Source of the DNA: Candidatus Jingweiarchaeum tengchongense | GTDB lineage: Archaea; Nanobdellota; Nanobdellia; Jingweiarchaeales; Jingweiarchaeaceae | Assembly: GCA_025920705.1 (NCBI GenBank) | Contig: JAPDLJ010000004.1 | Coordinates: 1-64,000 of the forward strand | Reading direction: 5' to 3' | DNA length: 64,000 bases | Shown here: piece after piece, positions 25,359-47,211 of the stretch | Position numbering within the stretch: the stretch's first letter is position 1 | Layout of the letters: every line of letters begins with the position of its first letter | Notes under the pieces: model-generated | The model's database searches: none | Seen by the model: only the letters and a program-made list of their open reading frames with translations | What the model was told of the DNA's origin: nothing | Program-made: the position numbers and the translations under genes

Positions 25359-26165
25359 ATGAAGTTTCGAGTTACATATGTACTAATTCTAGCAATGTTC
25401 ATTGTATATTTTCTTTCATTCACTTTGAAAACAAATGTTGAAAGTTTATATTTTAACCTCAATGAGTTTCTATCTGGAAGATATTACATCATAATTACTG
25501 CACTCTTTCTCCACCAAAATTTTTTTCATTTAATTTTGAATATATCACTTTTATATCTTTTTGGGACAACATGCGAAGAAATTTTAGGCATTAAAAAAAC
25601 AATTTTTACTTTTTTGTTCGTAGGTATAATAACTTTTTTTATAAGTGGATTAGTTTATGAAACAAATGCAAGATTTGTTGGGTGTTCTGGAGCTATTTTT
25701 GGAATTATGACATTGGTTTTATTCATAAAACCGATAAAATATACAGTAGATTTTCCTTTCAAACTCATTTTTCAAGAGGGGAGAGAAATAGAAATTGGAA
25801 TAAAAGAAGAAAAGTTCGACCTTAGCACAATTTGCTTGGATTATTTGATAATTACACTCATTGTTTTCACGATGATTATGCTGTATGGGATAATTCCAAT
25901 AAAAAATGTTGCACATTTTGGACATGTTGTTGGTGTCATTTTAGGTTCTGCTTTCGGCCTTATCTGGAATCCCAAATTAAAAGAATATGCAATGAGAGCA
26001 TCTACAATTTTATTTTATCTTCTCTTTATTTTCATAATTTTTTTCTTTGCACTCTATCTCATCACTTATTTTTTAGATATAAAACCAATTTATTCACCAA
26101 TAAACTCATTCCTATTTTCAACCATTAAATTTATTTCTGACTTTTTACAATCATTCTTTAAGTGA
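25359..26165 (+). CDS. Rhomboid family intramembrane serine protease
   Basis: 268 residues and about six or seven membrane helices. The catalytic Ser is in GCSGAIFG (S110) and the His in VAHFGH (H186), with HLILNISLLYLFG for helix 2. An extra loop of about 25 charged residues (EGREIEIGIKEEKFD) sits between the Ser and His helices. Rhomboids cut single-pass membrane proteins within the bilayer. A second rhomboid lies at 37434-38066. Substrates unknown. Its stop is close to the downstream small gene. Confidence 0.9.
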   Translation: MKFRVTYVLILAMFIVYFLSFTLKTNVESLYFNLNEFLSGRYYIIITALFLHQNFFHLILNISLLYLFGTTCEEILGIKKTIFTFLFVGIITFFISGLVYETNARFVGCSGAIFGIMTLVLFIKPIKYTVDFPFKLIFQEGREIEIGIKEEKFDLSTICLDYLIITLIVFTMIMLYGIIPIKNVAHFGHVVGVILGSAFGLIWNPKLKEYAMRASTILFYLLFIFIIFFFALYLITYFLDIKPIYSPINSFLFSTIKFISDFLQSFFK

Positions 26166-26170
26166 CAATA

Positions 26171-26476
26171 ATGAGTTTGAAGGCATTGAACCTAATCAAG
26201 AAATTAATCTTTGAGTCAGCGAAAGAAAATAATTTTCATTTAACTGTTGATTTTGAACGTTATTTGCTTGAATTTTTTAGAAGTAGGTTTTCACTAATTG
26301 GCTCAGTAAACTTTTGTGATGATCTGGAGAAAAAATTAAAGGAAATAAAAAAAGATCAACCTGAAATTTTGAAGAGAATGGTAAAAGAAGCAATGGAATT
26401 ATATCAAAGAAGGACACCACTTATCATAGTTAAAAAGAAAAAGAAGAGGGCGAAAGAAGCCGTAGAAATCATTTAA
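26171..26476 (+). CDS. Small basic helical protein
   Basis: 101 residues from ATG 26171 (a GTG nine bases earlier overlaps the rhomboid stop). Helical, with a strongly basic KKKKKRAK stretch near the end. Residues 25-55 contain a compact FERYLLEFFRSRFS segment. No family recognised. It follows the rhomboid gene, so it may be its partner, and its end overlaps the convergent HerA-like gene by 8 nt. Confidence 0.55.
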   Translation: MSLKALNLIKKLIFESAKENNFHLTVDFERYLLEFFRSRFSLIGSVNFCDDLEKKLKEIKKDQPEILKRMVKEAMELYQRRTPLIIVKKKKKRAKEAVEII

Positions 26477-29400
26477 TCTTTATCTTGTTTTCTATGTCTT
26501 CTAAATAATATTTTACAAGCTCAAGCATTCCATGTCTTAGTTTTTCAGCTGCAAGTTCCAAACTTATTTTCATCTCCGAAACATCTCTCCTATCTTTTAA
26601 TTCATCAATCTTTTCCTTCAGTTCTAATATTTTTTTTCTATAAATCTGAATCTCATCAATCTTTTTATTTGGAATCGAATGTGGTGAATGGAGTAAGGGT
26701 CGAAATTTTATGAAGTATGGGTTCGCATTATTATATTCTGGATTTTGTATCATACCAACCCCCGTCTTTAATTTTGGTATCATTTTAGCAAAGGCACCAC
26801 CATACTTTTCTTTTATCCTGTTTATATCCCCTTCGTAATTTGTCCTGAACTGAATTTCAGTTTCAACATTAGCTCTTATTACTGCTTTAAAATCAGTTAG
26901 AACTTGCGATGTAAGCAATAAACCGATTCCCCACTTTCTAAATTCCCTAACTGCTTTCTCGAGCATTAAGTATGCCTTTTTTCCACCATACTTTGGTAAT
27001 AAGCGATGCACTTCTTCAAGCACAATCAACAACTTTAATTTTTCACTTTCTTCTAGATCTGCTTCAAAAAATGAATTTAGAAATTTTTTTATAAATTCAT
27101 CAAAATCTTCATTATTGAGTTCATTCAAACAGAATACTGTAATCCCACCTTGCCAATATCTTTCCATCTCTATCTTTGTATCTGCGTCTATTCTTATGAT
27201 ATCTGTTGCAAAATTCATTGGTTCCTTTAAACCAAATTCTTTATAGAGTCTTAACATGCTTTGTTCATCACACTTTGAGATAAACCCAGTCCATTGTTGT
27301 GTTGGATCGAGCACGATTACAGGTATTTTTAATTTAAGTAGTTCTTCAGCAATTATCATCGCAGTTACTGACTTTCCTGAACCGGTTGAACCTGCAAGTA
27401 GCATATGTTTCATTAATTCATTTACATCGATGTATGCGTTCTCTTTTGTGTTCAAAATTTTACCTAAGTATATACCTTTTTTAGGAATTTTTGAAAAATC
27501 TACCTCAATCTTTTTTGGTTGGGCAATAAATTTTGTTTTCTCTATGAATTTTTTCTCAATTCCAAAGACGAACAATAAACTTGATAGAATTAAAATGAAT
27601 ATCACCAAAATACCAATCCACTCAAAGCTTCTCTTTAATTTTATTTCGTCAGATAGCTTATTTATGTAGTCAATTATGGCCAATATTATTTTATCCGCGG
27701 ACACATAGTCACCAAGTTCGATATACATGAGCGATTTATTTAAAAGAAATTCAATGTTTAACAAACTTGAATATAAGTTTGATTTCGGAAATAAATGAAG
27801 TTGGTCTATTTCTTCTCTTAAATTTTTTATTTTATCTTTAATTGTATCGATTCTCTCCATATAGAATGGGCTCCTCGAGTTAAATTTTAATGGTATAATA
27901 GAACCACCTTCATCATAATCAATGTACAATAGATAATCATACATTCCTTCTTCCAAGTTCAGATTCAATATTATTTCCAAATTTTTATCCAGTATTGAAA
28001 AATTTTTTGAATAATTCAGACTTTCTATTCTTACATTTAGATGATGGATTGGAAGTCCGCACACATTTTCTAATATTATCTTTATCTCATTTGATTTGTT
28101 TGAAGATATTAGGAAATTTGTCTTACTTATTTTCACACAATCTTTCTTGACAAATAAACTTGCACTTGCATTTATTTTTTGTTCATACATATAACTAGCT
28201 AATACTATAACCTCGTATACACCAGGATCAATTTGCATCGGAATTAATATTGCTCTATCTAAACTTAGAAAATCTTCCACAAATACTGTTTCATTTGTTT
28301 TCTCAAATACCTTTTCACCTTTTTTTATCTGATATTCTAAAAATACATTCGTTGCACCTTTTCCAAAATTTGTGATATTAACAATGAAATTTAGAAGACT
28401 CCCCACCCAAACAACATTATTCTTCAAATCAACAGAAATATTTAGGAAAGGTACTGCCCGATTTACAATCATTGTTGTATTTATTTTGTTACTGCTAACT
28501 GGATTGTTGGCTGAAACACCATTCGCCGTGACTGAAAAAGGATAATCTCCTATAATCGCATCTAATGGAATTACAAATCTAATTTGAAATGTTTCATTTG
28601 TATTCATTGTTATGTTTTTATAGATTGGATTTATCTGATACCATGAATTGTTTAGCCCACTTATTGATAAGTAAACATTACTTATATTACCATTATGCGC
28701 ACTTACGATTGCATTTGTATCATAGAAAGAAGCTTGCGTCAGTATTATTCTTGTTGGAAAATACAATGTCAATTGAGCTTGCGTAGGTTGGTATGGTTGT
28801 TGCGGTAAATCATTAACTACATAGATTAATGTTGGGATCTCATTCCAATGTTGCAATGAATCTTTCGCATAGTATTTCCATGCATAAACTTTTCCAATTG
28901 TCCAATTTCCAGCACCTATCTTATAGCTTACACTATATGGCTCACTTGCATCTAATGTGATTGTATAATTCGTCCAGACTCCAGAATAGTTTGAACTGAA
29001 AATTACTTCTGTTAAGTTGATTGAATCATTCCACACCACATTACAAAAAACATCTTCATTATAGTATGGATTTCTATTTGGTATTTGTGTGATATTTGAA
29101 TAAAATGGGGTATTTAAGTCTACCTTGAAATTAATTAAATTTGATGTTCCATTTAATATATCATCTTGACATATCACCCACAGTTTATACATTCCTTCTG
29201 ATAAATTCGTGATGTTTATTATTCTAAAAGAACCATTGTTGACGATCGAATCATATACAATTTCATCATTCAAACCATACCAACAACTTAAGTTTGTTTT
29301 ATAATTATCAATTGTTGTATAGTTTAGTATAACCCAATCTTTTCCGATAATCGTATTGTTCATCGGTTCTGTAATTAAAACTTCTGGATTTAAAATATCA

Positions 29401-29756
29401 ATAAGCAATTGATCACTCCAATTTGTTGAATTCCATTCATTCAATGTATTATTTACATAGACCATCGCCCTTATTTTGGTTGTTGAGTCTATTACCTTTG
29501 TTGAATTTGACCAACCTGGCGTTGTATTAAATAAAATTATACTATCATTGTAGATTGAGTTAGAATAGTTCCAAGAGACAATGAATGAACTTAGATTACA
29601 ACTTGCATTACTTTCATTCCAAAAAGCATATACTTTAACTTGATTTTCAGCTACTCTCTCAATGCTAAAGTTATACCAGTAAGGTATAGCAAAGCATGCC
29701 GATACAAATGGTAATAAAAGTACAAAGATAATCATGAACCTAAAATTTATTCTCAT
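26469..29756 (-). CDS. Membrane protein with extracellular domains and a cytosolic HerA/VirB4-type ATPase
   Basis: 1095 residues. A signal peptide (about 1-23, ending near SACFA) precedes about 690 residues of exported Ig-like/APHP-type repeats rich in N-glycosylation motifs (N-x-S/T). A single membrane helix follows at about 713-732 (WIGILVIFILILSSLLFVFG). The C-terminal 350 residues are a DUF87/HerA-type ATPase: Walker A GSTGSGKS at 789-796, Walker B LLIVLEEVH at 909-917, RxFRKWGIGLLLTSQV with a sensor. HerA-family hexamers translocate DNA, while VirB4/FtsK relatives pump DNA or proteins. A surface-to-cytoplasm architecture like this suggests DNA transfer, secretion or pilus assembly. Not shown by sequence alone. 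Confidence 0.85.
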   Translation of the reverse strand: MRINFRFMIIFVLLLPFVSACFAIPYWYNFSIERVAENQVKVYAFWNESNASCNLSSFIVSWNYSNSIYNDSIILFNTTPGWSNSTKVIDSTTKIRAMVYVNNTLNEWNSTNWSDQLLIDILNPEVLITEPMNNTIIGKDWVILNYTTIDNYKTNLSCWYGLNDEIVYDSIVNNGSFRIINITNLSEGMYKLWVICQDDILNGTSNLINFKVDLNTPFYSNITQIPNRNPYYNEDVFCNVVWNDSINLTEVIFSSNYSGVWTNYTITLDASEPYSVSYKIGAGNWTIGKVYAWKYYAKDSLQHWNEIPTLIYVVNDLPQQPYQPTQAQLTLYFPTRIILTQASFYDTNAIVSAHNGNISNVYLSISGLNNSWYQINPIYKNITMNTNETFQIRFVIPLDAIIGDYPFSVTANGVSANNPVSSNKINTTMIVNRAVPFLNISVDLKNNVVWVGSLLNFIVNITNFGKGATNVFLEYQIKKGEKVFEKTNETVFVEDFLSLDRAILIPMQIDPGVYEVIVLASYMYEQKINASASLFVKKDCVKISKTNFLISSNKSNEIKIILENVCGLPIHHLNVRIESLNYSKNFSILDKNLEIILNLNLEEGMYDYLLYIDYDEGGSIIPLKFNSRSPFYMERIDTIKDKIKNLREEIDQLHLFPKSNLYSSLLNIEFLLNKSLMYIELGDYVSADKIILAIIDYINKLSDEIKLKRSFEWIGILVIFILILSSLLFVFGIEKKFIEKTKFIAQPKKIEVDFSKIPKKGIYLGKILNTKENAYIDVNELMKHMLLAGSTGSGKSVTAMIIAEELLKLKIPVIVLDPTQQWTGFISKCDEQSMLRLYKEFGLKEPMNFATDIIRIDADTKIEMERYWQGGITVFCLNELNNEDFDEFIKKFLNSFFEADLEESEKLKLLIVLEEVHRLLPKYGGKKAYLMLEKAVREFRKWGIGLLLTSQVLTDFKAVIRANVETEIQFRTNYEGDINRIKEKYGGAFAKMIPKLKTGVGMIQNPEYNNANPYFIKFRPLLHSPHSIPNKKIDEIQIYRKKILELKEKIDELKDRRDVSEMKISLELAAEKLRHGMLELVKYYLEDIENKIKIK

Positions 29757-32398: not shown

Positions 32399-33066
32399 TT
32401 GTTTCCCTTATCAGATTCTTTAATCCATATTGCCCAGCACAACTCTATCTGTGAGATTCCAATCTTATTTGCAATCACTTCTATTTTTTTTATTAGATCA
32501 ATTTCATTATCCGATTTTATCTTGAATAATCTCTCAATCGAACGTTTGATTATTTTATCTGGCATTGAAGTATCAACACCAACTTGCATTCTCAAATATT
32601 GAAATGTAATCAAACCCACACCTTTGATCTTTCCAATTTCATCTTCTTCCCAATTCTCATAATTTGCTTTTTTAGCCCAGTATTTTAATGCACCAAAATC
32701 GCTCAAATTTTGTTCTTTTTTTATCCTTAATATTCTCTTACATATTTCAAGGCAAGCATTCCAGACCCTTTCATTTTTGATTAATTTTCTTAGTCTTTCA
32801 TCTTTGGCATTTAATTTGACAAAATCTTCAAGTGTCGAGATTTTTCTTGTTCTAACATAATCCTCATAAAATTTCTCAACTCTAGGAACGACAATTTTAA
32901 AATAATTTAAACCAATACTGTCTAAGCAGGCATCAATTATAATTAAAAGTGCGTTTCCATACCACCTTTTTCCAGAAAAACATAAGTTAGCATAGTACTT
33001 CGCTTCTTCTATTACATCAGAAAAATAGCTTTCATAGATTTTCTTCCAGTACACACTCTTTGGCAT
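32395..33066 (-). CDS. HhH-GPD superfamily protein without iron-sulfur loop
   Basis: 223 residues, helical. At about 140-185 it has EIGKIKGVGLITFQYLRMQVGVDTSMPDKIIKRSIERLF, close to the HhH followed by the Asp and Arg helix of endonuclease III/AlkA-type enzymes (G-V-G, then a D-x-x-x-P-D and R). No Cys cluster. It overlaps the ligase stop by 35 nt, so all these genes are translated together. A base-excision role beside end joining is inferred. Confidence 0.6.
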   Translation of the reverse strand: MPKSVYWKKIYESYFSDVIEEAKYYANLCFSGKRWYGNALLIIIDACLDSIGLNYFKIVVPRVEKFYEDYVRTRKISTLEDFVKLNAKDERLRKLIKNERVWNACLEICKRILRIKKEQNLSDFGALKYWAKKANYENWEEDEIGKIKGVGLITFQYLRMQVGVDTSMPDKIIKRSIERLFKIKSDNEIDLIKKIEVIANKIGISQIELCWAIWIKESDKGNK

Positions 33067-34024
33067 CTTTATCCTCTCTTAGTCTGATAAAGCTTGGTGC
33101 TCTGAGCATAAGATCTTTCGTTATTTCCATGAATTTAACCTCACAAACAATTCTTGGTTGCACCCATTTAACAACGTATTTTTTTTCATAGTCTTGCCAA
33201 TTCTTTAATGTGTCCTTCACCGGACATTCAGCAGCAATTTCGTCAAGTTTATTTTTAATTTCTCTTAACTTTTCATCATCCCAACCAGTTCCGACTCGTC
33301 CAATATGAAACAATTTTCCTTTATGATAACAACCGAGTACAAGCGCACCAAAATATCCTTCCCTTTTTCCTTTACCTTCAGTATAACCAATTATTACTGC
33401 ATCAATTGTTTTTAGATTCTTTATCTTTAGCCAAAATTTTGATCTTTTTCCAATCAAATATGGTGAATCTTTCTTCTTCATCATAAGCCCTTCAAACCCG
33501 ATTTTCTTTATCTCTTCAAATAATTTCTTACAATTTATTCCATTAAATTCTTCAGATATTCTTATGAAAGGATTATCTTTCAAGACATTTCTTAAAATCT
33601 TTTTTCTTTCAATTAAAGGCTTATCAATTAATTCTTCACCATTTAAATAAAGGATATCGAAAACAACAAATGTGGCTGGTATTGTTTTTGAAAGTACATC
33701 AATCTTAATTTTGTCGTCTACATGTTCCCTCATTTGTAATGAATAAAAGTCTGGTTTACCTTCTTTGTTGTAAGTTACAATCTCACCATCCAATATCACT
33801 TGCCTTGCATTTATTGCATTTGGGAGTGCACTATATATTTCAGGATATTTATGTGTAAAATCAATCATTCTACGATTTAAAAATCTTATATGATTTCTAT
33901 CAGCATCAAAATAACATATCGTCCTAGTTCCATCCAATTTTATTTCACAAATCCAATCTTCATCATCAAATGCGCTTGAGGAATAAGCGAGCATTGGTTT
34001 TATGTCTTTTTCCATTAGATCCAT
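33032..34024 (-). CDS. LigD-type ATP-dependent DNA ligase
   Basis: 330 residues, the size of the ligase domain of bacterial LigD. Motif I is EIKLDGTR (nucleophile Lys near residue 28-30); motif III is DGEIVTY, motif IV is FEGLMMKKKDSPY, motif V WLKIKN. The OB part ends with KWVQPRIVCEVKFMEITKD and LRAPSFIRLREDK. No polymerase or phosphoesterase domain is attached, unlike the full LigD. It follows the Ku gene by 32 nt. Its role is to seal ends held by Ku. Confidence 0.93.
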   Translation of the reverse strand: MDLMEKDIKPMLAYSSSAFDDEDWICEIKLDGTRTICYFDADRNHIRFLNRRMIDFTHKYPEIYSALPNAINARQVILDGEIVTYNKEGKPDFYSLQMREHVDDKIKIDVLSKTIPATFVVFDILYLNGEELIDKPLIERKKILRNVLKDNPFIRISEEFNGINCKKLFEEIKKIGFEGLMMKKKDSPYLIGKRSKFWLKIKNLKTIDAVIIGYTEGKGKREGYFGALVLGCYHKGKLFHIGRVGTGWDDEKLREIKNKLDEIAAECPVKDTLKNWQDYEKKYVVKWVQPRIVCEVKFMEITKDLMLRAPSFIRLREDKDAKECVLEENL

Positions 34025-34056
34025 AGTCTAAATTTAAAATTTAAAGAATTAATTTT

Positions 34057-34842
34057 TTACTTTTCTTCTTCACCTTCTTTCTCAATGCTTTCTTTTAGTG
34101 CTGAAATAAGTTCCTCAGCTTTTTCAACTCTTTCTTCTGCACTCACTTTGAACTCCTTACCTTCACTCTTTGCTTTTATTAATTCCTTCAACGCTTCGGT
34201 GTATTGGTCTTTAAATTTTGCTGGATTGAATTCTTGTTGTGTGAGCTTGTTAATCAACATCTTAGCAAGTTCTAGTTCTTCCTTACTTACAATAACAAGA
34301 TTTTCGAGTTCCTTCAATTTTTTTATGTCCTTAATTTCAGATAAGAAGAAGAGGATATGCATTATTAAACCATTTTGGAATGGTCTTAAACAAACAAGAT
34401 ATTCCTTATCTCTCATTACCACTTTTCCCACGGCTGCCTTATTTGTAATTCGAAGTGCTTCCACTAGTAATGAATAAGATTTTACTCCACCCTCGTCAGG
34501 TACAACATAATAACTTTTCTCAAAGAATATCGGATCTATTTGTGAAATATCAACAAATTGTTTTATATCGATTGTCTTTGTGCTTGGTAGTTTTATTTTG
34601 TTTAAATCTTCCTTTTCAATAACAATCCACTTATCTTTAGAAATCTTAAATCCCTTTTTTACATCCCGCCATGCAATTTCTTTTTCACACTTTGGGCACC
34701 AACGTTTGTATTCTAATGGCGTGTTACATTCACTACACAAATTATTAAATTCTATTTCCTTTGGCTTAGTTGCCACATAAATTTTTATTGGAATGTTGAC
34801 AAGCCCAAATGAAATCGATCCTTTCCAAATTGCGTGCACCAT
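34057..34842 (-). CDS. ku: Ku protein
   Basis: 261 residues, bacterial/archaeal Ku length. It begins HAIWKGSISFGLVNIPIKIYVATKP, has a zinc-ribbon pair of Cys (CSEC and CPKC at about 37-54), the VPDEGGVKSYSLLVEALR segment, and KVVMRDKEYLVCLRPFQNGL. The C-terminal tail is basic and acidic mixed (KAKSEGKEFKVSAEERVEKAEEL). Ku forms a dimeric ring that threads onto double-strand ends and recruits LigD-type ligase. The next gene is such a ligase, giving a two-component end-joining system. Uncommon among archaea. Confidence 0.95.
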   Translation of the reverse strand: MVHAIWKGSISFGLVNIPIKIYVATKPKEIEFNNLCSECNTPLEYKRWCPKCEKEIAWRDVKKGFKISKDKWIVIEKEDLNKIKLPSTKTIDIKQFVDISQIDPIFFEKSYYVVPDEGGVKSYSLLVEALRITNKAAVGKVVMRDKEYLVCLRPFQNGLIMHILFFLSEIKDIKKLKELENLVIVSKEELELAKMLINKLTQQEFNPAKFKDQYTEALKELIKAKSEGKEFKVSAEERVEKAEELISALKESIEKEGEEEK

Positions 34843-37433: not shown

Positions 37434-38066
37434 ATGCGACTATTTACAATATTGATAATCCTTAACATCATTTCTTTTCTTATTCTAGCAAATGCACAAT
37501 TTTTTGGAATCAATGAAAAGTTTATTACTGAAAATATTCTTTTCTCTCAGAAAAATTTTGTTAGCGGTGCCTATTGGACTGTTATCACTTCTCTTTTTGT
37601 GCATGCGGATATTATGCATCTACTTTTGAACATGTTGGGCCTTTATGCTTTTGGCAAAACAGCTGAGAAAATTTACGGATCTCTTAAGTTCATTCTCGTT
37701 TATTTTGTTGGTGGTATACTATCATTTCTAGTTGGTTCATTCTTTTATCCAAGCGAAGCATTCTTGGTCGGTGCATCTGGTGCAATTTTTTCGCTTTTAT
37801 CGCTTGTAATGCTTTCAAAGCCAATTAGTTTTTCAATCGTGTTTTTTCCACTTCCACTTGGTTTAATTTCATTTCTTTACATTGTCTCAAATATACTGTC
37901 TGTAATTTATAGAGATAAAAGTAATATCGGATTTTTCGCACACATTATCGGTTTCTTAATTGGTTTTATTTTTGGAATTAAATGGTGCCCAGAATGGAAG
38001 AAAAATTTCCTTGTTACGCTCATCACCTTTGTCATATTCTTAATCATTGTTGTATTCATCCTTTAA
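37434..38066 (+). CDS. Rhomboid family intramembrane serine protease
   Basis: 210 residues, the basic six-helix form. Catalytic Ser in GASGAIFS (S115) and His in FFAHIIGF (H170); helix 2 has HADIMHLLLNMLGLYAFG. It is shorter than the rhomboid at 25359-26165 and lacks its charged insert. Upstream it is divergent from the metallo-beta-lactamase pair. Confidence 0.9.
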   Translation: MRLFTILIILNIISFLILANAQFFGINEKFITENILFSQKNFVSGAYWTVITSLFVHADIMHLLLNMLGLYAFGKTAEKIYGSLKFILVYFVGGILSFLVGSFFYPSEAFLVGASGAIFSLLSLVMLSKPISFSIVFFPLPLGLISFLYIVSNILSVIYRDKSNIGFFAHIIGFLIGFIFGIKWCPEWKKNFLVTLITFVIFLIIVVFIL

Positions 38067-40339: not shown

Positions 40340-40855
40340 TCAAGAATAGATCAAATTAAAGAGTTGTTCTTGTTCAACTTCGATTGTCTTTAAAAAATTT
40401 TCAGTTTTTTTGATGTATTCACCAAGATCTTTTAAATTTCCTCTATTATAATTTGTTAAAATATAATTTACCATATTATTTGCCCCATCTATCCTCAATT
40501 TAAGCGAGTTTATTCTTGCTATTGAGACTCGATCTTGTCTTTCATTGATCTTACTTTCCAACATATTCAAACTATATCTAATCTTTTGAAATCTCTGTGA
40601 TATTTCTCTGACTTTCTCATCAATTCCAACACTGACCACTTCACCAGTTGTATATACATGATATGCTAAGAACAGATTTAAGGCAAGTCCCAAAATCAAT
40701 ACAAATGGAAAAATATATGCAATTTGAATCAGGAAGAAACAAATCAAAATATAAGAAAATAAGATGATGATACCTAGTTGTAAGTTACCAAGGTAGATAT
40801 AACCAATTCCCGGCCAAATGAAATTTGTTATACTTGCAATTATCTTTTTTTCCAT
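40340..40855 (-). CDS. TM2-like membrane protein with a coiled coil
   Basis: 171 residues from ATG 40855, which shares a base with the stop of the long upstream gene (TAATG). Hydrophobic helices at about 7-25 and 30-60 include FIWPGIGYIYLGNLQLGIIILFSY, close to the TM2 domain. Residues 75-165 form a helical, coiled-coil tail in the cytosol. Position suggests translation together with the split protease. Role unknown. Confidence 0.6.
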   Translation of the reverse strand: MEKKIIASITNFIWPGIGYIYLGNLQLGIIILFSYILICFFLIQIAYIFPFVLILGLALNLFLAYHVYTTGEVVSVGIDEKVREISQRFQKIRYSLNMLESKINERQDRVSIARINSLKLRIDGANNMVNYILTNYNRGNLKDLGEYIKKTENFLKTIEVEQEQLFNLIYS

Positions 40856-43800
40856 TATCCTATCCACCCCAACATTTTTATTATTAATGTTAATATGAAG
40901 CCTGGAAGTCCAAGCGCCAACAGAGAAAACATTTCTATTGTCCTCAAGTTTTTATCTTCTTTGGTTAAACTGATTATCGTACCATTACTTGCATCGATGA
41001 TTGCTTTCGTGTTAATCCGTGCTTCGAATAATAATAAAACTTTCTTTTTTGACACCCCGCTTATTTCATAATATGGATTCATATTTTCCTCAGAAACTTT
41101 TACTTCATTAATTTCACTCATTTCACCTGAAATTGATGAAATTGCACCACGTAGATCTACATTCATTTTACTTGCTGCAATATCACTAATTGGTTTGTAT
41201 TCTACTGACACATTCTTAATTTCTCCAGCGATTTCAATCGTGATCGTTGTGTTTCCTGGCGCATATACTCTCTGCGTTTGATTTTGTTGAGGTCCAGCTT
41301 CGCTAACCTTAATTACAGTTAGACTTTTACTCATTGTTTTCTCAGTCGAAACATTATTAACGAGGTACCTAACTCTCGCTGTAATTGTATAAATACCACT
41401 TGTGTTCAGATTTCTTATTATGAAATCCGTAGTTGAACTTGAATTCCTAGATATGGTGATTGATCTAGCAGGATCGGTTTGTAGCGGGAACGGAGCTAGA
41501 ATATCGACCGTAACCGTTTTGTCTGTTGTTCCATTATTTCTTATCACGACTGATGCCCTTATTTCCTCTGAAACATTTGCGCTTGCTGGAACATCAAAAT
41601 TAACGATTGATATTGTGTCTGTTTCAGGTGTAGTTATTAACTTTACGATAACTAGTAAAGATGCAATATTTGATTCAACTGTAGTCACATTGCTTTTGCC
41701 AGCTGCGCCATAAAGTAATGTTAAATTTTTGTTTTCATGACCTGGAGGCACATTGACAGTAACTGTGAATGCAGATTGTGCCCCAGGATCTAAACTCATT
41801 GCACTTGGTGATGAACTTATCCAAGAGCAATTCGTAAAACTTACACAGACAAAACTGATGTTTTCCACTTTTCTTGTATAGATATTTTTAATATTTACTA
41901 TGAAATTAAATTGTCCACTGTTGTTTACGGTGACCTGTATTGTTCCACTACTCACATTTAATCCAACAATGGAACTTGGTGGAGTCCATACACATTGTGT
42001 TGATGATTCACACCCATTACTCCAACTTCCATCACAATTATAGTATCCACTGTTACAATAGCAAACACCACCACTACAATATGCATTTGATCCACAATTC
42101 ACACCAGCACATGGATTACAAGGCGTACTACTACAAATACCATTACAACAATATTTTCCTTGACATTCAGAAGCAGATGAACAACTTACACCATCACACT
42201 TTCCACAATCCTGCGGACAATTTGAACAACTTTCACCCAAATCACCCCTACACACACCATCACCACAGTAACCACCATAACGCATTGCTACAGAAATTCT
42301 CTTACTTATGTTCGTTCTTTCTATCGCTAAATTAGTATAATCAAAGCTGCCCAGTAAGAAATAATTACCAACTTCTGAAAATGTATGAGTATAACCTAAG
42401 TTTTTAGTCTCGCTCGTTGATATATTTAATGGTGTCGAATTGATTAGATAATAAGAATTATTTTTTATATAGAAGAATAGAAATGTACCTTCTATCGACT
42501 CATTTATTAAGTTAGTTAATGTAAAGTTTACCAGGTATGTTGAATTTGTTACAAATATATTCGAGGCAGAGACAGAAATGCTTAATGGTGGATTTATTTC
42601 TATTTTATCTTCACCAATTATTGAATTTGAATCTGGGGATGCGAAATCAAATTTGTAAATCAATTTATATTTCCCAGGGTTATAAAATAGACTTAATAGT
42701 GTGGAGTTGGATATAGCCTGATTATCTTCCAATTCTATACTTTCATTAAATAAGTTCTGTATTACAGTACCATTTTCAAAACATAAATTCAATGTGTAAT
42801 TGCCACTCACATTTAATCCACCAGTATTGTTAACGATGCCAGTTAAGTTCACTACATCACCGTAAATCAATTCTGATTTATTTATTATATTTAAGATGTG
42901 TAGACCCACATATTGTAAAGAAGGTGTTATTGATACATTTGTCTCATTTTCGGATGTCGTTTTTAATTTTAATACCACATCATATGTTTTATTTGGAATA
43001 AGATCAATATAAAGTGGAGAATTTAGATCTCTCAGAATTATTTTTTTCAAATTACCCATATCTACAACACTATTGAACAAATAATTTTGGATGACACCAT
43101 TTAAACTAGATGATTCAGTTTGATAATCAAGTAAAGTGTCATTATTCGCATCAAAAACAAGTTTATCATTAGACCCATAGACAGCCTCCTTACCATCAAT
43201 TTTTCCATAATACAAATAAGAAGAGTAACCACAAAGCGGACTTGAAAGACTTACATAAGCGTGAGTAGAGTAAACAGATATTTGATAAGCAGTAAAATTT
43301 AAACCATGGATTGTGATGTTTGAATTCTGAGAGATCTGTGTCTCATCGCTGAAATCATCATCTGAATCACTATCAAAATAGAGATAACCCTTATCACTTA
43401 CTAACATGTTTGGTGTATAAGTGGTTGTACTTACAGACAGGGTATAATTTCCTACACCACTCCAAAGATCAACCATTATGTAATAAGTGCCAGCAGTCAA
43501 TATTGAGCTACAACTCTCTGTTGCTGATCCGCCAGTATATGGTCTACAACTCCAGTGACTTGAATCAGGGCAATTACCGTACCACTCTGTGTATAAGTCG
43601 TAATCTACGCCAGAATCCATACTTAGTGTAACAGTAATTAGTTTACTTTCATTTATTGTAAACTTATAATATTTGTATGTTTGTGTCGAATCAATGACAT
43701 ATTCATTCAATGAAATTGAACATGCATTACTGCATGAATTACCACAATTTTGTGGCGCATATACAGTTGAATAATTAGGCGGTGTGTGTTGAAGCATAAA

Positions 43801-46281
43801 TGATCCCAGATAAAACTTGTGATTTGTTGTTGGTATATTTCCAACATAATAACCAGTAGCATCCAAAAATCCATCTGACATGTTTGCTCCAGTAGAATTT
43901 TTCAAATCATAGTCTATCGTCACAAAAGTTTGATAGCAAGATGATTTACTCAGATTCCCACTAATTTCATTTTGTTTCACAAAGAACGAATCCACATCAA
44001 CTTTTACAGCCATCATCGGTATTACTGTTCTATTTGAACTAATGTTAAATAAGATTCTATAAGTTCCATTTTCTGGAGATGAAATCATTCCCCACAATTC
44101 ATCATCTTTTATCGTCAAATTCAGCTGTTGTGTAAAATTAAGATAGCTAGCGATTGTAATTGGTGTTATTATCGTAAGGTTTGGATCATACCCTTTTATG
44201 TATCCTTTAATTACTTTCCCTGTGTTGTTGGTTACATCAATATAAATACTCAAATTTTTGTTTGCATTACTTTCTAAAGAATTAAATGAATTGTTAATGT
44301 TTATACCACTACAATTTGAGGCTTCGTAGAATGTGTATAAAATGTTTACTGTATGATTATAACCATACTTACTAAAAACAATCCTCCAATTTCCAGGTAC
44401 TATATCATATGTTTGAAATGTTGTGCTAGAATAATACCACCCACCCAGATAAGTTACATTGTTAGGATTATAAATTGTTATTACTACCCCTTCAGAGAAA
44501 TCATCAGGGACGATATTTATACTCATCTTCACAATTCCGCTTGGAACATTTAAGTTATATGTATAAGTATTATATGGCCAGTCAGAATAACTTCTAGAGG
44601 TAAGCTGAATAGTGCCACTTCCTGTTGATTTTACTCTTTCACCACAGTAGATAAACCAACTAACATTTGTTAGTGGAACGCCAAAATTATAATAAGTCAA
44701 ATTCAATGTTTTATTTGTTTCATTTATATCAAATAACACATAAACATCAGTTGGTTCTGATTTTATTGCATAAAGCGTTGAATTTAGTTCATATGTTGGA
44801 CTTGTATTCGCAATTATCAAAATTTTACTCAAATAAATTACTTTATTTGTAAAATCTGTTGAGAGGCTTAAATTATTATAACCAAATATAATGTTGCTAG
44901 TGATATCAATACTATAATTTTGATCTGTTGTATTTGCAGTGATATTTATTAACTCGTTTCCATTCAGCAATACTGATATATCACTTTCACTGTCATTTAT
45001 GTGTAATGTTAGATTCACAATAACTTTGTTCAATTTAAAAGGGCGAGTAGGGGAGAAGTAGAACAGATATGTTTTATTTGTTGAATTTATTACATCATAA
45101 GAAAGGTTTGTATAATTTAGTAATGTTTGAATTGTTGGATCCATTCGATATGTTCTTAAGACGATTGTATAATTTCCAGTAGTTGGATTACCAAGTGAAG
45201 TACTTGATGATAAATCAACTATTTCCTTTGAAGGTGAGACAACGTAGAATCTATCATTAGTGCTTAAGTTTGAAGTAAAGTATAACTTTGTTTGAGTTGC
45301 CGGAGGTACCTCAATGAAGTAATAAGTAGTGTTTGTAACATTTATTGTCCCATTTAAACTAGCAGTACCATTTGTTAATGAAATTTTTTGCGCTATTTTT
45401 ACGTCACAAGGCACTAACATGCTTCCATTGTTCCATGAGAAATTTATGAAACCAGTGTATATGCCACCAGGTATATTGGTTGGTACATCCACATTTACAT
45501 CTATTACTTGATGTGATTCGCTCCTATTTCCAAGTTCTATGTAACTTATATTTTGTGGTCTGAATGTAATCCAACCTGCTATTTCACCACCAGTCCTTAC
45601 CGTGAGATTTTGTAATTGTTTTCCAATTATGATTGTAAATCTTCCGCTTGTACTTGAACCAGGAATAAGTCCATATAAAAGCATTGGTTCACTCAAACTT
45701 GTTTCTCTCTCAGGACTTTCAGTATATGTTGAAATATTCCATAAATTCGGTATGACAGCAATTGTAACATTATTATTCATAAGAAGCCAATATGAATTGT
45801 TGATATCAATTCTACCAGTTCCTTGATGGAAAGCATCATATTCAATTCCATAACTATCTTTTAATTTATCAGCTCCAAGCATTAATGCTGCTTTTATTAA
45901 TTCTGGCCTTGGTCTTTGTCCACCATGTGTGCTTTTGTAAGCTTGGATTAATAGAGCAGCAGCTCCAGCAACTTGTGGTGTTGCCATTGATGTTCCACTT
46001 GCCATTGTATAGTAACTATCAATTACTGTTCCCATACTTGTTCCACTAGCTCTTGCAGCAATGATATTAACGCCAGGAGCGACAACTTCTGGTTTAATAT
46101 TGCCTTCCATTGTTGGTCCACTACTACTAAAACTCGCCATCCTATCTACTTGATCAGAAGCGCCAACAGTCATTGCTTTTAGTGCTTCACCAGGAGATTC
46201 AATTTGAATATATTCACCTATACATCCTGCTATTAAAATTATTCCAATCAAAATCAAAACTAAAAATATTTTTTTATCCAT
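40855..46281 (-). CDS. Split subtilase C-terminal half: lipoprotein with the catalytic Ser, PPC and Cys-rich domains
   Basis: I start at ATG 46281 (1808 aa); upstream in-frame codons lie inside the first half-gene. Residues 1-20 are a perfect lipoprotein signal, with LIAGC and the lipidation Cys at 20. Residues 23-130 continue the S8 protease fold: YIQIESPGEALKAMTVGAS, FSSSGP and the catalytic Ser 98 in GTSMATPQVAGAAALL. Asp, His and the oxyanion Asn are in the other half (46274-47149). A long Asn/Thr-rich exported region follows, with a PPC-like domain at about 840-960, a Cys-rich EGF-like section at about 1330-1430, CARDB-like repeats, and a membrane helix near the C-terminus (LLALGLPGFILTLIIKML). 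Confidence 0.88.
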   Translation of the reverse strand: MDKKIFLVLILIGIILIAGCIGEYIQIESPGEALKAMTVGASDQVDRMASFSSSGPTMEGNIKPEVVAPGVNIIAARASGTSMGTVIDSYYTMASGTSMATPQVAGAAALLIQAYKSTHGGQRPRPELIKAALMLGADKLKDSYGIEYDAFHQGTGRIDINNSYWLLMNNNVTIAVIPNLWNISTYTESPERETSLSEPMLLYGLIPGSSTSGRFTIIIGKQLQNLTVRTGGEIAGWITFRPQNISYIELGNRSESHQVIDVNVDVPTNIPGGIYTGFINFSWNNGSMLVPCDVKIAQKISLTNGTASLNGTINVTNTTYYFIEVPPATQTKLYFTSNLSTNDRFYVVSPSKEIVDLSSSTSLGNPTTGNYTIVLRTYRMDPTIQTLLNYTNLSYDVINSTNKTYLFYFSPTRPFKLNKVIVNLTLHINDSESDISVLLNGNELINITANTTDQNYSIDITSNIIFGYNNLSLSTDFTNKVIYLSKILIIANTSPTYELNSTLYAIKSEPTDVYVLFDINETNKTLNLTYYNFGVPLTNVSWFIYCGERVKSTGSGTIQLTSRSYSDWPYNTYTYNLNVPSGIVKMSINIVPDDFSEGVVITIYNPNNVTYLGGWYYSSTTFQTYDIVPGNWRIVFSKYGYNHTVNILYTFYEASNCSGININNSFNSLESNANKNLSIYIDVTNNTGKVIKGYIKGYDPNLTIITPITIASYLNFTQQLNLTIKDDELWGMISSPENGTYRILFNISSNRTVIPMMAVKVDVDSFFVKQNEISGNLSKSSCYQTFVTIDYDLKNSTGANMSDGFLDATGYYVGNIPTTNHKFYLGSFMLQHTPPNYSTVYAPQNCGNSCSNACSISLNEYVIDSTQTYKYYKFTINESKLITVTLSMDSGVDYDLYTEWYGNCPDSSHWSCRPYTGGSATESCSSILTAGTYYIMVDLWSGVGNYTLSVSTTTYTPNMLVSDKGYLYFDSDSDDDFSDETQISQNSNITIHGLNFTAYQISVYSTHAYVSLSSPLCGYSSYLYYGKIDGKEAVYGSNDKLVFDANNDTLLDYQTESSSLNGVIQNYLFNSVVDMGNLKKIILRDLNSPLYIDLIPNKTYDVVLKLKTTSENETNVSITPSLQYVGLHILNIINKSELIYGDVVNLTGIVNNTGGLNVSGNYTLNLCFENGTVIQNLFNESIELEDNQAISNSTLLSLFYNPGKYKLIYKFDFASPDSNSIIGEDKIEINPPLSISVSASNIFVTNSTYLVNFTLTNLINESIEGTFLFFYIKNNSYYLINSTPLNISTSETKNLGYTHTFSEVGNYFLLGSFDYTNLAIERTNISKRISVAMRYGGYCGDGVCRGDLGESCSNCPQDCGKCDGVSCSSASECQGKYCCNGICSSTPCNPCAGVNCGSNAYCSGGVCYCNSGYYNCDGSWSNGCESSTQCVWTPPSSIVGLNVSSGTIQVTVNNSGQFNFIVNIKNIYTRKVENISFVCVSFTNCSWISSSPSAMSLDPGAQSAFTVTVNVPPGHENKNLTLLYGAAGKSNVTTVESNIASLLVIVKLITTPETDTISIVNFDVPASANVSEEIRASVVIRNNGTTDKTVTVDILAPFPLQTDPARSITISRNSSSTTDFIIRNLNTSGIYTITARVRYLVNNVSTEKTMSKSLTVIKVSEAGPQQNQTQRVYAPGNTTITIEIAGEIKNVSVEYKPISDIAASKMNVDLRGAISSISGEMSEINEVKVSEENMNPYYEISGVSKKKVLLLFEARINTKAIIDASNGTIISLTKEDKNLRTIEMFSLLALGLPGFILTLIIKMLGWIG

Positions 46282-47149
46282 TATTACCAGCCGCAACAGC
46301 AACAAAAATACCTTGGTCAACTGCATTATTTACTGCTTCAGTTAATGGTGACATTGGACCACTGTAACTACCCCCGAGACTTAGACTAATTACATCAGCA
46401 CCATTTTGAATCGCCCAATCAATTCCAGCAATTATATCAGAACTATATCCACTACCTTCAGCATCAAGCACTTTTGCAATCAAAAGGAATGCATCAGGTG
46501 CAACACCTTTAAATTTTCCATTAGATTGTGTACCTGTTCCAGCTGCTAGGCTTGCGCAGTGTGTACCATGACCATGATCATCGTAAGGGTCTGGTCTACC
46601 ATTTATGAAGTCTTTCCATCCTCTTATTTTTCCTACAGGAAAAAGAAAATCAGGATGAGTTGGATCAATTCCAGTATCAATAATTGCAATTGTCACATTG
46701 AAACCAGTAATTTTCTGATCCCAGACTGGTTGCACATTGATATAATTACTCCTATTGTCAACATAAGAAGAGTATTCACTTTGCATTACTTTTATTGGTT
46801 TCGGTAAAGAAACTTTTTCATCGGAATATATCTTCTCAATTTCTTTACTCCATACCAAGTCTTTCAATACTTCTTTATTTGCTTTTATTGCAATCCCTTT
46901 AAAAAATTTGTATTCATAAATTATATTTGCACTACTTTTTATTTTAGATTCCAAAGATAAAGATGGTTTTTGTGAAAATTTTATTATAACCCTTATTTCC
47001 TCTTTGGATTCATTTGAAATTTTCTCCAATAACTTTTCATCAAATTTGGAATTTATTATTTCATTCTTTCTTTCTTCGATAGAAAATGTTACCGAGATAC
47101 AAATAAGTAAGAAAATTATAGACATGATAAAAACCAACTTTTTCTTCAC
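46274..47149 (-). CDS. Split subtilase N-terminal half
   Basis: I choose the GTG at 47149 (291 aa) since a TATA-like CTTAAAAAT is about 25 nt upstream and a signal peptide (KKKLVFIMSIIFLLICISVTFS) begins there. Residues about 25-115 are an inhibitor/I9-like prodomain, then the S8 domain starts with catalytic Asp 158 (IAIIDTGID), His 194 (HGHGTHCAS) and the oxyanion Asn 289 in AAGNNG, where it stops with TAA at 46274. The sequence that should follow (ending in the catalytic Ser) is in the overlapping next gene. The stop overlaps that gene's start by 8 nt (ATGGATAA). Confidence 0.88.
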   Translation of the reverse strand: MKKKLVFIMSIIFLLICISVTFSIEERKNEIINSKFDEKLLEKISNESKEEIRVIIKFSQKPSLSLESKIKSSANIIYEYKFFKGIAIKANKEVLKDLVWSKEIEKIYSDEKVSLPKPIKVMQSEYSSYVDNRSNYINVQPVWDQKITGFNVTIAIIDTGIDPTHPDFLFPVGKIRGWKDFINGRPDPYDDHGHGTHCASLAAGTGTQSNGKFKGVAPDAFLLIAKVLDAEGSGYSSDIIAGIDWAIQNGADVISLSLGGSYSGPMSPLTEAVNNAVDQGIFVAVAAGNNG

Positions 47150-47211
47150 AATTATAACTTTAAAATTCACATTTTTAAGTTTTTGTTGTACTCAAGAGTA
47201 AAAGCAATAGA

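Follow-up and report, generated by a model that had tools for sequence, protein, structure and literature searches.

What kind of machine combines, in a single archaeal protein, a large exported domain with a cytosolic ATPase of the HerA type? The gene that raises this question lies in the stretch of DNA analysed here (the window), 64,000 nucleotides of a contig of Candidatus Jingweiarchaeum tengchongense. A first-pass annotation of the window had described one protein with a signal peptide, a glycan-rich exported part, a single membrane helix and a complete HerA-like ATPase, and had proposed a search for homologues of the same architecture and a look at their gene neighbours.

Architecture of the window protein and its spread

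The gene is a single frame of 1,095 codons with an ATG start and no internal stops (Table 1). This uninterrupted frame bears out the claim that exported part and ATPase are joined in one protein. The signal peptide and the single membrane helix are likewise confirmed, the former as a hydrophobic segment at residues 7-25 and the latter at residues 714-732, where the sequence is hydrophobic throughout. An assembly accident, in which the exported part would really be a separate gene, is excluded because the same architecture recurs across many genomes and in the paralogues of the protein's own genome.

Table 1. Coordinates of the ATPase gene, its parts and other genes of the window
Feature	Residues	Position	Strand	Basis
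Whole gene, SPEARE-type surface-anchored HerA-like ATPase, 1,095 aa	1-1095	26469..29756	-	ORF, Pfam, alignment, tree
Signal peptide	1-25	29682..29756	-	hydrophobic segment 7-25
Ectodomain, beta-rich, 37 N-glycosylation sequons	26-713	27618..29681	-	prediction, relatives, sequon count
Membrane-proximal three-helix bundle, end of ectodomain	about 629-713	27618..27872	-	pLDDT about 70-92
Transmembrane helix	714-732	27561..27617	-	sole TM helix after signal segment
Cytosolic HerA-type ATPase core	733-1040	26637..27560	-	Pfam, profile, structure match
Walker A, GSTGSGKS	789-796	27369..27392	-	sequence motif
Walker B, LIVLEE, usual D914 replaced by E	910-915	27012..27029	-	family alignment
C-terminal coiled-coil tail, common to SPEARE-type proteins	1041-1095	26472..26636	-	alignment and model helices
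Rhomboid protease gene		25359-26165	+	
Rhomboid protease gene		37434-38066	+	
Subtilase (S8), two overlapping frames		40855-47170	-	profile match
Ku and ATP-dependent DNA ligase genes, adjacent		33032-34842	-	

The ectodomain carries 37 N-x-S/T sequons; when its residues were shuffled 2,000 times, the mean was 11.8 and the maximum 23. The cytosolic residues 733-1095 carry none, so that the excess is confined to the outward side. This agrees with the description of the roughly 690-residue exported part as glycan-rich. The Ig-like label of that part holds only partially, since the Pfam scan of the window protein returned neither an Ig match over cut-off nor a laminin-G match. Weak similarities to Ig-bearing relatives connect residues 112-217 to an exported protein bearing Big_13/PKD matches and residues 349-535 to the stalks of SPEARE-type family members. 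Structure prediction without an alignment models the residues up to about 628 as all-beta at low confidence and gives, at about 629-713, a confident three-helix bundle that the first-pass annotation had not mentioned and whose final helix is continuous with the TM helix; this single-sequence prediction is usable for the bundle only.

The search for homologues was productive. The ATPase is found at E <= 1e-30 in 66 of 371 sampled genomes of the protein's own phylum, mostly in frames of 700-1,500 aa but reaching 8,189 aa outside its own genome, and the architecture extends to two further archaeal phyla, the nanohaloarchaeal one with 15 of 28 genomes and a third with 10 of 29. All 29 rows checked share the TM-then-ATPase layout, and an N-terminal signal can be seen in those whose gene start falls within the sequence retrieved. 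Across this family the motor is conserved, and the ectodomain can be as short as about 230 residues or longer than 11,000. A single scan of genome contigs yielded only three loci. Viral contigs searched with the window protein as query contained no relative, and a viral origin was dropped.

The protein's own genome (1.12 Mb in 40 contigs) encodes two paralogous ATPases, each forming the C-terminus of a long open frame (4,862 and 12,056 residues). Both giants have a hydrophobic segment at the N-terminus, then thousands of residues rich in sequons, one TM helix and the ATPase; the helix bundle of the window protein is not seen in the sequence directly before their TM helices. The longer frame (G000:C23:5724-41894, loci L005-L007) exceeds the 9,409-aa and ~9,000-aa archaeal proteins that have been called the largest in print.

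The nanohaloarchaeal matches point to the family. They include open frames of 9,433, 8,891 and 8,592 residues, with a paralogue of 623-677 residues next to each. Both the frame lengths and the tandem layout fit the published SPEARE giants SVXNc_0300 (9,409 aa), BNXNv_0298 (8,880 aa) and the Nanopetramus SG9 protein (8,553 aa) (PMC10266531, PMC6642349). The alignment of the window protein to these giants covers the ATPase and the coiled coil after it from end to end, with 37-44% identity, and a midpoint-rooted tree places it, on a long branch (1.03), in one group with SPEARE-size giants and its genome's own paralogues (support 100/100). SPEARE proteins have been described as having a signal, a large ectodomain, a TM helix near the C-terminus, and a cytosolic ATPase and coiled coil (PMC6642349, PMC10266531). 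Adhesion domains in the ectodomain, such as laminin-G or Ig repeats, also count among the marks of the kind. The window protein shows the same order, with a large outward ectodomain after its signal peptide, a C-terminal TM helix and a cytosolic end in which a homologous ATPase of the FtsK/HerA superfamily precedes a terminal coiled coil. It differs in its size (1,095 aa versus several thousand for most published members), in its ectodomain and in not being nanohaloarchaeal. Size is not strictly defining, however, because small members occur in published work, at 655 and 717 aa (PMC6642349) and among the small SPEARE-like genes noted in 2022 (PMC9563170). Judged by sequence, then, the window gene is a small member of the SPEARE-type family.

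The kind was thus already known: the published nanohaloarchaeal giants, the small SPEARE-like genes and the similar cytosolic sequences that Hamm et al. noted in 2019 in Woesearchaeota, Aenigmarchaeota, Micrarchaeota and Altiarchaeales (PMC6642349) had all been reported before, and the window gene's combination of signal peptide, ectodomain and HerA-type ATPase is not unprecedented. What is new here is a HerA-like core without room for a HAS-barrel, a partner gene (c2) at 31 loci, and the lack of a consistently linked channel gene.

HerA ranks above VirB4 as a match to the motor

A 2023 paper reinterpreted the SPEARE proteins of Nanohaloarchaeota (PMC6642349) as ATPases of a VirB4/TraG-like secretion type (PMC10266531). 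Both sequence profile and structure place the core of the window protein nearer to HerA than to VirB4. Pfam identifies DUF87/HerA (2.8e-13) and HerA_C (1.6e-5), both above cut-off, and a profile built from 13 family members ranks HerA structures first (4d2i, 2e-14). The predicted ATPase domain (pLDDT 67.6, pTM 0.70) has Sulfolobus HerA 4d2i as its top fold match (Z 20.4, 227 residues, 3.8 A), followed by other HerAs (Thermococcus 9x1m, Z 20.0), VirB4 (Z 16.9) and TrwB (Z 15.6). Of 53 family-conserved positions 50 are retained, including Walker A and the SQ motif, and Walker B has Glu in place of the family's usual Asp.

The claim of a complete HerA-like ATPase needs qualifying. The relationship to HerA and both Walker motifs are present, but the likeness covers the core only: the alignable part of Sulfolobus HerA begins at HerA residue 107, and with about 56 residues between the TM helix and Walker A there is no room for a HAS-barrel. 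The window protein also differs from HerA translocases, its best fold and profile matches, in being exported and membrane-anchored and in having no adjoining NurA. Its signal peptide, TM helix and want of room for a HAS-barrel rule out a soluble HerA/NurA repair helicase. A defence-type HerA is likewise rejected, as the PADLOC matches fall within the shared ATPase core and the Pfam-scanned neighbours include no defence partners such as Sir2. The 2019 reading of SPEARE included a type III restriction enzyme, and this too is rejected: ResIII scores just above its cut-off on the core (23.5 versus 22.5 bits) and the HerA match is far stronger. That slight excess probably accounts for the older 'restriction endonuclease' reading. 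Elsewhere in the genome, a separate 503-aa HerA/CedD-like frame (G000:C39:37376-38392, L096; 83 bits to the CedD model) is possibly the genuine HerA of this organism.

Among characterized membrane-anchored motors the nearest are CedB and CedD of the crenarchaeal DNA import system, both HerA-type ATPases with a TM anchor. Saccharolobus cannot import DNA without CedD (PMC11868833), whose model (NF053655) is the best NCBIfam match of the window protein, at 6.9e-15 and 54.7 bits, far short of the 600-bit cut-off. Unlike the window protein, CedB and CedD carry a VirB4-like N-terminal domain and not a large ectodomain (PMC11868833).

Type IV secretion systems use VirB4 and TraG/TrwB-type ATPases, which belong to the same superfamily as the window protein. 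The 2023 argument for such a system draws in part on PF03135, the N-terminal domain of VirB4, as a feature of the tandem ATPase (PMC10266531). Pfam found no PF03135 match in the window protein or anywhere in its genome, and did not return the domain for the two nanohaloarchaeal tandem ATPases that were scanned.

A coiled-coil partner gene, but no consistently linked channel

We examined the neighbours of 55 ATPase genes at hand-chosen loci, so the fractions that follow are descriptive and do not represent a random sample. A coiled-coil protein with a GELR motif, c2, is encoded no more than five genes downstream, in the same orientation, at 38 of the 50 ATPase genes for which enough sequence was available. 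These c2 genes lie at 31 loci, one c2 being shared between tandem ATPases, and among 616 proteins all 31 c2 hits fall at SPEARE-type ATPase loci. The gene is directly or nearly directly downstream of its ATPase in three phyla (for example L005:3845-5038, L009:1811-3232, and the SPEARE-type loci L104:12756-14294 and L105:12823-14379, with 27 others). No specific Pfam family matches c2, which gives generic coiled-coil matches only.

With regard to c2 the window gene differs from the giants. Both giants of its own genome adjoin a c2 gene, accounting for the two copies in the genome, but none is found beside the window gene or its two nearest tree relatives, G186 and G286, and the same is true of some smaller operon-type members. 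The missing partner, together with the long branch and the Walker B change, might be read as marking a degenerating paralogue that drifts towards loss of function whilst the giants do the work. We consider this improbable, given an intact frame, the conserved positions retained, the strong sequon enrichment, and partner-less relatives of the same subgroup in two other genomes.

A consistently linked channel-like gene was not found: a gene with at least three predicted TM helices occurs within four same-strand genes of 13 of the 55 ATPase genes, against a background of 11.5% per gene, and several of these 13 neighbours are tandem ATPases or large exported proteins. Because no such gene is consistently linked and the sole TM helix is wholly hydrophobic, a pore is not in evidence. 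These observations bear on the published proposal that the nanohaloarchaeal giants are secretion 'straws' (PMC10266531), by which the ATPase would drive a type IV-like apparatus that injects effector proteins into the host. In its favour are the good structural matches to VirB4 and TrwB and the presence of tandem ATPases at several loci. We nevertheless regard it as rather unlikely for the window protein, since HerA outranks VirB4 in both profile and structure, PF03135 is missing where it was sought, and no channel-like gene is linked with any consistency.

Other features of these loci recur. Many operon-type members follow an upstream ribbon-helix-helix-like gene (~90 aa) and a ~1,000-aa exported protein with Ig/PKD matches, in the order ribbon-helix-helix, exported protein, one or two ATPases (L043, L045, L046, L051, L055-L060 and L062). 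MinD/ParA-type genes lie near SPEARE-type loci at L009:8394-9104, L119:11692-12465 and L049:2313-3047, confirmed by Pfam at L009 only, and perhaps serve positioning.

A putative motor for cell contacts

The architecture, the evidence for its topology, the family membership and the conserved ATPase motifs are direct observations, and the scheme that we favor, at a little under even chances, is that of a glycosylated stalk on a HerA-type ring motor that moves a polymer at cell contacts. The glycosylated, beta-rich stalk would face outward and the cytosolic tail would act as the motor, with six copies most likely forming a ring under the membrane through the ATPase. The stalks may touch either the cell's own coat or a partner cell, with ATP hydrolysis then driving polymer movement where contact is made. 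The ring, the adhesion, the substrate, the direction of movement and any pore are inferred. DNA is a more probable substrate than protein because the nearest characterized membrane-anchored motors, CedB and CedD, serve DNA import. The window copy, an operon-less member, may act alone or may borrow the c2 encoded beside its giant paralogues. A coupling of surface contact to a putative translocation is plausible, and a similar idea has been published for the giants of Nanohaloarchaeota (PMC10266531). Counting against the scheme are the absence of c2 beside the window gene, the Walker B Glu, the wholly hydrophobic TM helix and the want of a consistently linked channel-like gene.

A serious rival, though one to which we give distinctly less credence, holds that nothing crosses between cells and that the ATPase remodels, positions or retracts the stalks, or aids export or folding of the ectodomain. 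A conserved motor bearing ectodomains of such different lengths would suit an adhesin of this kind, as would a recurrent partner that is a coiled-coil protein rather than a channel, the MinD/ParA-type genes near some loci, and, in the window protein, a helix bundle that runs straight into the TM helix. On the other hand, the best-matching motors (HerA, FtsK, VirB4 and CedD) are all polymer translocases, and remodelling lacks direct evidence.

We suggest tentatively, and with less assurance than for the favored scheme, that SPEARE-type ATPases, together with the GELR-motif protein encoded downstream, make up a contact machine not described before, which differs from type IV secretion and occurs in three archaeal phyla or more; the window gene would stand for a branch that functions without the linked partner. 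The family bears on the means by which the small symbiotic archaea of the DPANN group adhere to other cells and trade material with them. The spread of the family, the HerA-like core and the linked c2 gene offer concrete targets, and a member of 1,095 aa is far easier to express than a giant of 8,000 aa.

Rhomboids cleave single-pass membrane proteins. The window has two rhomboid protease genes, of which the one at 25359-26165 lies about 0.3 kb past the 3' end of the ATPase gene. In the 2019 proteomics of SPEARE, ectodomain peptides and TM/cytoplasmic peptides were recovered in different size fractions (PMC6642349). The subtilase (S8) elsewhere in the window extends over two overlapping frames that cover profile positions 3-154 and 163-277, a split that is due to a frameshift or sequencing error, and the adjacent Ku and ATP-dependent DNA ligase genes form an NHEJ-like pair.
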